Part shown: one piece after another, positions 41,698-45,693 of the stretch
Layout: each line of letters starts with the position of its first letter
Numbering within the stretch: the stretch's first letter is position 1
Assembly: GCA_018675975.1 (NCBI GenBank)
Contig: JABGXB010000002.1
Coordinates: 62,001-126,000, forward strand
Length of the DNA stretch: 64,000 bases
DNA from: Candidatus Woesearchaeota archaeon
GTDB taxonomy: Archaea > Nanobdellota > Nanobdellia > Woesearchaeales > JABGXB01
Reading direction: 5' to 3'
The notes under the pieces: generated by a model
Databases searched by the model: none
What the model saw: the letters and a program-made list of their open reading frames with translations, nothing else
What the model was told of the DNA's origin: nothing
Program-made: the position numbers and the translations under genes

Positions 41698-42279
41698 TTA
41701 AAATAATTTATCTAATCTTCCATTTACAATATCCCAATTAATATTCAGTAAAAATGCATTTAGATAATTAACTTTTTTAGTACCATAATCAATCATAAAA
41801 GCATGTTCCCAACAATCTAATGCCAAAATAATTTCTTGATCCACTGGCAACCCAATATGATGTTCATACATAATATAAGTATGTAATTTATTTGTTTGTT
41901 TATTTAATGTTAATACTACCCAACCAGGTGTACTAACGGCAGAACTCTTTAAATCTAATTCAAAATTTTCCCATGATCCAAAAGAATCATTTATCATTTG
42001 TTTTAATTTTTCACTAGCATTTCCACTTGAACCCAAATTTTCAAAATATTTTTCATGAAGAAAAACTCCATTAAAAGCAATAGCTTCTCTTCTTTTAAGT
42101 TCAGAAAATTCACCAAAACTATAATTTGAAAGAGATTTATCCACATTTTGCAATTTTTCTGTAATTTCATTTAGTTTTTTTACATAACCCGCATATAAAC
42201 CAAAATGAGCTTCTAATTGATTATCGGAAATTCCGTCTACATTACCTAATAAATTATTAAAATTTTTAACTTCAAACAT
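41698..42279 (-). CDS. Fe/Mn superoxide dismutase family protein
   Basis: ISDNQLEAHFGLYAGYVKKLN, AFNGVFLHEKYFENLG, DCWEHAFMIDYGTKKVNYLNAF; start probably MFEV (ORF to 42291). Confidence 0.9.
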   Translation of the reverse strand: MFEVKNFNNLLGNVDGISDNQLEAHFGLYAGYVKKLNEITEKLQNVDKSLSNYSFGEFSELKRREAIAFNGVFLHEKYFENLGSSGNASEKLKQMINDSFGSWENFELDLKSSAVSTPGWVVLTLNKQTNKLHTYIMYEHHIGLPVDQEIILALDCWEHAFMIDYGTKKVNYLNAFLLNINWDIVNGRLDKLF

Positions 42280-42379
42280 AAATATCACCAAATTTAGTTT
42301 TTTTCATTTATTTATAAAATAATTTATTAAAAATGTTTATAAATAAATAAAGTTACTCATATTCCCCCGCAAGTATAAA

Positions 42380-42988
42380 ATGATCGAAAAAAATATATCA
42401 AACAAAGCACTAATGAAATTTTATAAACATTTCATAAAAAAAAGTATTAATCAATTGTATAAAAGTAAAGGTAAAAATACTAGAATTTTTTTTGATACTT
42501 GTGCAATTTTAAAATTATATAATCATTATGGTTCAGATATATTAAAATCTAACAAACCTCACAATATGCCAGAATATATTATTACTAATCAAGTATTAGA
42601 AGAATTAGAAAATCAAAAATTAAGTAGACGTAAAAATGATAAAGGTAGATTACTTTGCCCATATGAATTAATGAATGCAGTTTATTCAAGAATTGGGGAG
42701 GAAAGTTTATTAGTACTTCCGACATTTGTAAAACCCGAACAATTAAATCAAATGAAATCAGTTGCAGATGAATTATCAAATAATAAAAGAATTTCAGAAG
42801 CAGATGCAAGTTTAATTATTGCGACAAGAGATGTTTTTGAAAAAGGAAAAAATCAATTTATTATAAGTTCAGATAGTGATTTATTAACATTGATGTATGA
42901 ACAAAAAAAAAATAGAAATATAATCACTGCAGGTATTATTACACCAGAATTATATAGACTAACGAGCGAAGCAAATGGTTTTTATTAA
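42380..42988 (+). CDS. PIN-domain nuclease
   Basis: IFFDTCAILKLYNH, VLEELENQK, ISEADASLIIATRDV, FIISSDSDLLTLM: acidic tetrad pattern. Confidence 0.75.
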   Translation: MIEKNISNKALMKFYKHFIKKSINQLYKSKGKNTRIFFDTCAILKLYNHYGSDILKSNKPHNMPEYIITNQVLEELENQKLSRRKNDKGRLLCPYELMNAVYSRIGEESLLVLPTFVKPEQLNQMKSVADELSNNKRISEADASLIIATRDVFEKGKNQFIISSDSDLLTLMYEQKKNRNIITAGIITPELYRLTSEANGFY

Positions 42989-43667
42989 ATTTCCAATAAC
43001 ATATCACCTTTCTTTTAGTAAAATTACTGATCGTGAAGATAAAGTTTTACCAGAAAAGGAAACTGAAGAATTTTTAGAACAAAAATTAATAGTTCAAGAA
43101 AAATTTGATGGAACAAATATTGGTATATCATTTCAAAATGGAGATTTAATGGTTCAAAATAGAGGTAGTTATTTATGTCTTGATGATTTAGATAGATTAG
43201 ATGAATATAAAGGTTTTACAAAATGGATTAATCAAAGAAAAGATTCATTAAAAGCGACTTTAACTTCAAGTGAAATATTATTTATTGAATGGATGTATTG
43301 GGAGCACACAGTAAAATATGATAGTTTACCTGATTTGGGTATAGGATTGGATATTTATAAAAAAAAAAATGACAAATTCTTAAACACATCCAGAGTTAAA
43401 AAAATATTATCAGGAAAAGTGTTTACACCAGAAATCCTTTATAAAGGAAAAATCACTCCAGAAATAATTGAAGAATTATTAAATCAAAATAGTTCATATT
43501 CAAATCAACCAAGAGAAGGTTTAATTTTAAGACAAGATTCTAGAAATTATAATATACAAAGAGCAAAAATCGTATCAGATAAATTTCAAATATCAAGCAC
43601 ACATTGGAAAAGTGTACCTAAAACAGCCAATATTTGTAAATATAATATCAATTTCTATGACTTATAA
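42975..43667 (+). CDS. ATP-dependent RNA ligase family protein
   Basis: KxDG motif QEKFDGTNIG, NRGSYL, EWMYW, REGLILR, RAKIVSDKF (motif V); overlaps the PIN gene by 14 nt. Confidence 0.8.
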   Translation: MVFIKFPITYHLSFSKITDREDKVLPEKETEEFLEQKLIVQEKFDGTNIGISFQNGDLMVQNRGSYLCLDDLDRLDEYKGFTKWINQRKDSLKATLTSSEILFIEWMYWEHTVKYDSLPDLGIGLDIYKKKNDKFLNTSRVKKILSGKVFTPEILYKGKITPEIIEELLNQNSSYSNQPREGLILRQDSRNYNIQRAKIVSDKFQISSTHWKSVPKTANICKYNINFYDL

Positions 43668-43737: not shown

Positions 43738-45693
43738 ATGTGGTCTAAAAATATATTAAAAACAGCAATTTTGTCATTTTCATTATTAACGAGTGAAGCA
43801 AAAACATGCTATGATGTAGAATATTTAGGAAAATCTAAATATAAAGTAATTGAATTTGATGAAATTGTACACAGAAATGAAATTAGATCAAAATATGGAT
43901 TTAAATTATACTCATTAAAAAATCAAATTTGTGATAATAGTAATACAGAAACGTATACAAAAAAAAGAAAAAAAAAAATACCATCAGTTTCAAAAAGATC
44001 TTATTCTAAACAAAATACAATAGGAAAAATTAGTGATTCAGTTCATGGAATGAATACTTTTTTAGAATCTATTTTTGGACCACAAGAACAAATACAACCA
44101 ATTCCAAAAAAAGTAATTCGAACTCAACAAAGAAGTCCACCGGTAAGAAAAATTGGAAGTATGGCTACGAGTTCACCAAAAAAAGAAAAACCAATTATTT
44201 ACACACAACAAACTCAAACACAATTACCTCAAACAAATATAGATTCAATTTTATATTCAAATAAATTAAATGAATATAGTCAAACTAAAAAAACTGTATA
44301 TGAAGGCTTACAAAAAAAAATTGAATCTTTAGATCCTCAAAGTAAAACAAAATTAATTAATTTAGTTAAAACAATTAATCAAAGTAATTTAAATGTTTAT
44401 AATGAAAAAATAAATTTAGATGAATTATTAAAAACATATGCATTTTTTAAATTAAATTTAGAATACTTTGGGGAAATAAAAAAAGATAAATTAAATCAAT
44501 TATATAGAGAACACAAGCATATAATTAATGAAAGTTATACTCAAGCTAGTAAAGAACAATTTGAAAAAACTGGATATAAATCAAATACTTTATTATTTGG
44601 TAATTTAATTGAAATCGCAATTAATTCTAATAATTTAATAAGAGAAAATTATCAATTTTTAGAGTCAATTCTAAAACCAGTAATTGATAATTTAAATAAT
44701 AATACACTATCAGAATTATTTGAATTAGATCAAAATCAAATTGAAATAAGTAGTTTATTTAATTTTGCAAATACATATGATAATCCAGAAACATTATTAT
44801 TAAAATCCGATCAAAAAGATAAACAAGAATATAAAAAAAGTTTAGAAGAATTATTAGAAAGTCAAACAGGTCAAAAACCAAATATTAAAATTGAAGAAAC
44901 ACCAATAATAAGAACAAATAGTTTTGATAGTAAAGAAAAAGCAATACAAACATTAGATGAAAAGTTATTAAATCCATTTAGAAGTTTAGTTGAAGGTAAA
45001 GATGAAACTCAAATGCAAATAATAGCATCTCAAACAATAAGCCCAGATAATCCTTATGGGAGAACAATAAAAACATTAATTAAAAATATTGGAAAAACAT
45101 TTTCAAAAAGTTCAGATATAGAAAATATTGAAAATTATTATTTAAATGTATTAACACAAAAATTAGAAGATCCACAATTAAAAAATTATTTAGAACAAAA
45201 ATTAAGAATTAAATTAAATAGTCAAACAATAAAACAAGAATATGAAGTTTTAAAAAATACTTTAACAAAAACATTCAAAACAATAGGTGAAAATACATTA
45301 AAACAAATAACAGATAAATTTGATGGAGATAAATTAAAAAAAAAAGCTAAAGGAAACGGAATTCGAGGATGGTTTTCTACAGCTGAAGCATTTTTTAATG
45401 GTGGAGAAAATTATAAACCATTTATTCAAATAAATCAAATTGACTATAAAGATACAAATAGTGGACAATTATATGGAAGTATGGTAACATTTGAAATTCA
45501 AACTAATAAAGGTGGAAATGAATTTTATTTAAATTGTCCAATTCCATTAAGCCCAGGATTTTCGGATTTTATTTATGCAATTAAAAATATATTAAAAAAA
45601 GGAAAAATTCCACAAATGAAATTTGCAAAATTAGTAAAAAAAACAAAAGAAATAATTAATTTAGATGATACTAAAATTGCTAATAAACAATAA
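43738..45693 (+). CDS. Large secreted or anchored hypothetical protein
   Basis: N-terminal hydrophobic segment then Lys/Gln/Asn-rich 600-aa region; no family recognised. Confidence 0.6.
   Translation: MWSKNILKTAILSFSLLTSEAKTCYDVEYLGKSKYKVIEFDEIVHRNEIRSKYGFKLYSLKNQICDNSNTETYTKKRKKKIPSVSKRSYSKQNTIGKISDSVHGMNTFLESIFGPQEQIQPIPKKVIRTQQRSPPVRKIGSMATSSPKKEKPIIYTQQTQTQLPQTNIDSILYSNKLNEYSQTKKTVYEGLQKKIESLDPQSKTKLINLVKTINQSNLNVYNEKINLDELLKTYAFFKLNLEYFGEIKKDKLNQLYREHKHIINESYTQASKEQFEKTGYKSNTLLFGNLIEIAINSNNLIRENYQFLESILKPVIDNLNNNTLSELFELDQNQIEISSLFNFANTYDNPETLLLKSDQKDKQEYKKSLEELLESQTGQKPNIKIEETPIIRTNSFDSKEKAIQTLDEKLLNPFRSLVEGKDETQMQIIASQTISPDNPYGRTIKTLIKNIGKTFSKSSDIENIENYYLNVLTQKLEDPQLKNYLEQKLRIKLNSQTIKQEYEVLKNTLTKTFKTIGENTLKQITDKFDGDKLKKKAKGNGIRGWFSTAEAFFNGGENYKPFIQINQIDYKDTNSGQLYGSMVTFEIQTNKGGNEFYLNCPIPLSPGFSDFIYAIKNILKKGKIPQMKFAKLVKKTKEIINLDDTKIANKQ

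Follow-up and report, generated by a model that had tools for sequence, protein, structure and literature searches.

Introduction

A PIN nuclease linked to an ATP-dependent RNA ligase has been described in both archaea and bacteria under the name HARP-Rnl3 (PMC12153264). In that source HARP is listed as PF09745; PIN_5 in Pfam is PF08745, and the number given there is probably a slip. Another candidate system, HEC-03, is defined by the joint presence of HEC-03A and HEC-03B, with HEC standing for Hma-embedded candidates (PMC12988326). In Pnkp-Rnl-Hen1 and T4 Pnkp/Rnl, an ATP-dependent RNA ligase works with an RNA-end enzyme (PMC4411300). Furthermore, PIN nucleases occur in the two-gene units of VapBC. 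PrrC, RloC and PARIS combine an ABC-type ATPase with a nuclease that targets tRNA; the coupling of such an ATPase to a nuclease is shared by the bacterial cassette presented below, and we know of no ligase of their own in these three systems. Defence nucleases acting on tRNA are mostly presented as irreversible, any repair being the work of the phage. Against PrrC, phage T4 provides a kinase and a ligase (PMC12409363). Here, an overlapping pair of predicted PIN nuclease and RNA ligase genes was studied in an archaeal stretch of 64,000 nt, referred to as the window. No description of such a PIN-ligase pair, or of a ligase belonging to HEC-03, was found in the literature searched, and an earlier notice is possible.

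The PIN and RNA ligase genes of the window

The features of the locus are as follows.

41698-42291: superoxide dismutase, divergent neighbour of the pair
42336-42345, plus strand: TATA-box-like sequence TTTATAAATA, 35-44 nt 5′ of the PIN start, by direct reading of the letters
42380-42988, plus strand: predicted PIN-domain nuclease (alpha subgroup), 202 aa, from the ORF and homologue comparison
42494-42496, 42602-42604, 42803-42805 and 42872-42874, plus strand: PIN acids D39, E75, D142 and D165, respectively
42975-42988, plus strand: 14 nt shared by the PIN stop region and the ligase start region, ATGGTTTTTATTAA
42975-43667, plus strand: predicted RNA ligase of 230 aa, limited to the PF09414 nucleotidyltransferase core
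43101-43103, plus strand: ligase catalytic Lys43 of KFDG
from 43515, plus strand: ligase motif IV, EGLILR
43566-43568, plus strand: ligase motif V, Lys198
43738-45693, plus strand: orphan of 651 aa with no Pfam match, directly 3′ of the ligase

The sequence-only reading had described two same-strand ORFs overlapping by 14 nt beside which VapB was absent, and the coordinates above agree with it on both counts. In particular, neither a VapB-like gene nor a small antitoxin ORF was found adjoining the pair, which is flanked by the superoxide dismutase gene and the orphan, the latter with a signal-peptide-like N-terminus. The ligase start within the PIN gene is supported because the conserved N-terminal block of the ligase (FxRFPxTPHL in relatives, FIKFPITYHL in the window) starts 2-4 residues after this ATG in the homologue comparison, with no alternative Met in between. 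Moreover, the TATA-like box is a possible promoter, by inference, and the pair may have a promoter of its own. Unlike Pnkp-Rnl-Hen1 and T4 Pnkp/Rnl, the pair comes without a kinase, phosphatase or methyltransferase; the kinase/phosphatase partner gene by which Pnkp-type repair is recognised is absent, as the neighbours show.

Family assignment of the two proteins

Taken alone, the window PIN remained below the cut-off of PF13638 (E 0.14, 12.9 bits against 21.9). However, homologues passed the PIN_4 cut-off in two loci (22.7 bits in L124 and 24.4 bits in L005), and the four conserved acids of the PIN superfamily (D-E-D-D) are present in the window protein, with D39, E75 and D142 kept in all 12 aligned PIN proteins and D165 in 11 of them. 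The product of 42380-42988 is thus predicted to be a PIN protein through its relatives, an assignment supported by homologues that pass the cut-off and by the nearly invariant acid set. The relatives fall into an alpha and a beta subgroup, which are homologous to each other (hhalign probability 95%, E 1.7e−8). The window PIN had no match to PF01850, the VapC-type PIN. VapBC resembles the locus in having a PIN nuclease within a two-gene unit and differs from it in the enzymatic partner, the absence of VapB and the unmatched PIN family. Neither of the two window proteins was recognised by PADLOC as a system component, and the AlphaFold model of the window PIN alone had a pLDDT of 39.

On the ligase side, the match to PF09414 was clear (E 4.8e−24, with a score of 85.8 bits where 27 is the cut-off), motifs I, III, IV and V were all present, and KFDG, EGLILR and K198 were invariant or nearly so in the alignment of relatives, in line with the ligase signature noticed earlier. 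The protein consists of the catalytic core and a short conserved tail (HW...N). Membership of PF09414 argues for a substrate of RNA rather than DNA. The best BLAST relatives were plasmid-borne proteins annotated as ‘RNA ligase family’ with 30-34% identity, while phage records yielded distant ligases only.

The window pair differs from HARP-Rnl3 in both members. No match of the PIN to PF08745/PIN_5 was obtained at E up to 1, nor was this family found anywhere across the window's genome, while the 230-aa ligase scored far under the TIGR01209 (Rnl3) cut-off (24.7 against 136.9 bits) and lacked the C-terminal PF18330 of Rnl3, with PF09414 as the only Pfam family returned. In addition, the window genes are colinear and overlapping, whereas those of HARP and Rnl3 are typically bidirectional. 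The two pairs may nevertheless share a working principle, and the parallel with the linkage reported in 2025, formed by different subfamilies, suggests that PIN nuclease and RNA ligase pairing arose more than once. A HARP/RNase P function as the main role was rejected, given the absence of a PF08745 match and the presence of an RNase P RNA elsewhere in the window's genome (82.9 bits, just below the gathering score of 84).

Recurrence of the pair in archaea

The PF09414 and ligase profiles were used to scan 292 genomes of the same order and 380 of the same phylum, two samples that share genomes. The ligase family was present in only 13 of the 380 same-phylum genomes, a patchy spread that suits an accessory role. 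A pair unique to the window's genome had been considered after single-sequence searches of 60 same-order genomes, which returned only the query itself, and this was overturned by the profiles. A PIN gene was found as neighbour at 12 of the 16 ligase-family loci (the window, L004, L005, L008, L016, L124, L126, L129, L130, L131, L132 and L133) and at none of 24 other PF09414 loci, many of which encode DNA ligases (Fisher P-value of 3e−7). The four ligase-family loci without it were L125, L127, L128 and the frame-broken L015, and the PIN call of L133 is based on motifs and on a profile containing L133 itself. Because this first PIN profile contained the neighbours themselves, the count was repeated with a profile from four seed loci only, which detected a PIN neighbour at 6 of 12 loci outside the seeds and at none of the 24 comparison loci (P-value of 5e−4). 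The adjacency spans different archaeal families and two PIN subfamilies. Thus, the gene pair, whose conservation across related genomes the sequence-only reading had put forward as the check on its proposal and whose restriction to this genome it had taken as grounds for abandoning it, is conserved within the phylum and recurs, with a third PIN-like family, in bacteria.

The junction between both genes was variable, with overlaps of 4 nt in L008, L129, L130 and L131, 14 nt in the window and 20 nt in L133. The PIN and ligase genes are convergent in L005, so that they do not always form one transcript, and in L016 they are separated by a 142-aa gene. The latter (L016:470-898, minus strand) has no Pfam match and shares 14 nt with the beginning of the ligase gene, an overlap as long as the one in the window. 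Furthermore, in L126 and L130, which represent two genomes of one family, the gene 3′ of the ligase resembles GatB, a subunit of Glu-tRNA amidotransferase.

The reverse search was also performed, with the alpha and beta PIN profiles each run against 360 genomes. Strong matches to the alpha type, that of the window, appeared in four genomes, three of them adjoining a ligase, while all six strong matches to the beta type adjoined one. Past these, E-values jumped to 9e−7 or worse, the next beta match being at 9e−7. Close homologues of these predicted PINs were thus found almost only beside the ligase; since the seeds were drawn from ligase loci, the informative part of this result is the absence of intermediate solo PIN homologues. 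One alpha-type PIN (L138/L155, G091:C43:16586-17056) is embedded in one uninterrupted open frame of 7979 aa, in a genome from the same order, and no ligase was seen in its vicinity.

Bacterial relatives and the HEC-03 operons

More than 500 relatives of the ligase were found in the scan of genome contigs, and the following counts come from the best 80 of them, which according to record titles include Desulfovibrio, several Proteobacteria, Planctomycetota, Verrucomicrobia, Nitrospira, Synergistaceae, Myxococcota, Chlorobiaceae and Spirochaetia, among others. As around the plasmid-borne BLAST relatives, the gene order was an AAA_15/DUF3696 ATPase, then a protein of around 175 aa and then the ligase, with the complete triplet at 74 of these 80 loci and a 4-nt overlap between the PIN-like and ligase genes at 56 of 77. 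The ~175-aa protein was identified by PADLOC as HEC-03A in all 41 members and the ATPase as HEC-03B (E 3e−132), while the ligase matched none of the PADLOC HEC models; the HEC-03 models contain no ligase. In these bacterial loci (L034-L037 and L041-L120), which span many phyla, the HEC-03 operon almost always has an RNA ligase as its third gene. An ATPase-ligase fusion in L118 was rejected as a chance read-through in GC-rich DNA, with the ATPase split over two frames.

HEC-03A keeps D10, D117, D120 and D141, as well as E61 in at least 90% of members. Its best match to Pfam PIN_3 had an E of 0.017 and was present in 3 of 41 members. The AlphaFold model reached a pLDDT of 95, and its Foldseek matches all had E above 0.5, with VapC, SMG6 and an archaeal hypothetical protein, which we take for a PIN, among the top four. 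The conserved acids together with these weak Pfam and Foldseek matches are suggestive of a PIN-like protein. No alignment between the archaeal PINs and bacterial HEC-03A was obtained.

The ligase phylogeny, also proposed by the sequence-only reading, placed the ligases of the window, L004 and L124 as sister to 35 ligases of HEC-03 type (support 98/88), while most of the ligases paired with a beta PIN formed a separate clade (100/96). From this topology, three kinds of PIN partner are distributed across at least two ligase lineages, with the deep joins being tentative because several branches are long. The window pair thus resembles HEC-03 in its ligase and in having a PIN-like gene immediately 5′ of it, frequently with a 4-nt overlap. 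However, it falls outside the HEC-03 definition: the HEC-03B ATPase was found neither beside the pair nor elsewhere in the genome, and the window PIN belongs to a different, non-alignable family.

Two plasmid loci, from Sphaerospermopsis and Pseudomonas aeruginosa (L038 and L039), carry an HD and P-loop kinase (AAA_33) gene after the ligase and no PIN gene before it. Their ligases fall outside the group of HEC-03 and the window, together with L005, and no HD-kinase gene was found among the 80 bacterial loci. Overall, the ligase was seen with either a PIN partner or an HD and AAA_33 kinase partner, never both.

Proposed function and alternatives

Given the recurrent adjacency, the PIN protein and the ligase probably cooperate in cutting and mending RNA. 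A more specific reading, that the two genes are a conserved accessory module whose candidate activities would cut and reseal RNA reversibly under stress or virus attack, has in our estimate about an even chance of being right. PIN enzymes are metal-dependent, and the window protein would be such an endoribonuclease that breaks or trims a specific RNA, for which a tRNA or another translation RNA is the likeliest candidate. The cut would leave a 5′-phosphate and a 3′-hydroxyl, as expected for two-metal-ion nucleases (PMC12409363), and these are the ends required by the ligase class of the window protein (PMC7824862). The ligase would adenylate the 5′-phosphate and reseal the ends cut by the PIN, so that an end-healing kinase or phosphatase would be unnecessary because the ends match the ligase requirement. 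The predicted activities of PIN cutting and ligase resealing of RNA are chemically consistent with each other.

In such a reversible stress or anti-virus response, the ligase would switch the nuclease off or counter it as an antidote, and a conserved operon with a cutter and a sealer, if true, would amount to a reversible shutdown. The patchy spread and the relationship to HEC-03 suggest defence, but no recognisable defence island surrounds the pair in the window. The bacterial version would place the same pairing under an ABC/OLD-type ATPase, and the pair in the archaeal window would represent the stand-alone version with two genes. It is a tentative and on balance doubtful extension that HEC-03, with the ligase as its overlooked third component, and the window pair are the three-gene bacterial and two-gene archaeal forms of a widespread class of self-undoing immune or stress modules, in which the PIN would break tRNA or translation RNA and its own ligase would mend it. 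The HEC-03 candidate system also gains a probable third gene, and the PIN and ligase proteins are small enough for direct assay.

The earlier proposal of an RNA cleavage-repair pair is partly supported. The functional pairing has strong support from the recurrent adjacency, but tRNA-intron processing is unlikely as the main role, since the splicing endonuclease EndA and RtcB are both encoded elsewhere in the genome; with the RNase P RNA also present, the pair would be dispensable for basic tRNA processing. RNA maturation, in which the PIN would trim a precursor such as a C/D-box sRNA for the ligase to circularise, as proposed for HARP and Rnl3, is unlikely: despite the precedent for such pairing (PMC12153264) and an ordinary chromosomal neighbourhood, neither of the window proteins is a member of HARP or Rnl3, the spread among relatives is very patchy and the bacterial sister form has an ATPase typical of defence systems.

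Quite unlikely, in turn, is a toxin with an enzymatic antidote, where a VapC-like PIN would be countered by a ligase replacing VapB through repair or PIN binding. PIN proteins are classic toxins, and the genes overlap with no VapB gene present; nevertheless, the nuclease gene comes first, opposite to the usual vapBC order, the ligase keeps catalytic residues that binding alone would not need, and the alpha PIN within the giant protein has no ligase seen nearby. Finally, a dedicated repair function, with the PIN trimming damaged or wrongly ended RNA from foreign cuts for rejoining in place of a Pnkp-type kinase/phosphatase, would fit the kinase or PIN partners of related ligases (L038 and L039 for the kinase) and is very unlikely, as trimming shortens the RNA and no base-restoring nucleotidyltransferase was seen beside the window pair.

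Returning to the cut-and-reseal module, the kinase-paired relatives of the ligase would handle cuts leaving a 5′-OH, and the kinase found in L038 and L039 in place of a PIN is a possible partner swap matching the chemistry of the RNA ends.
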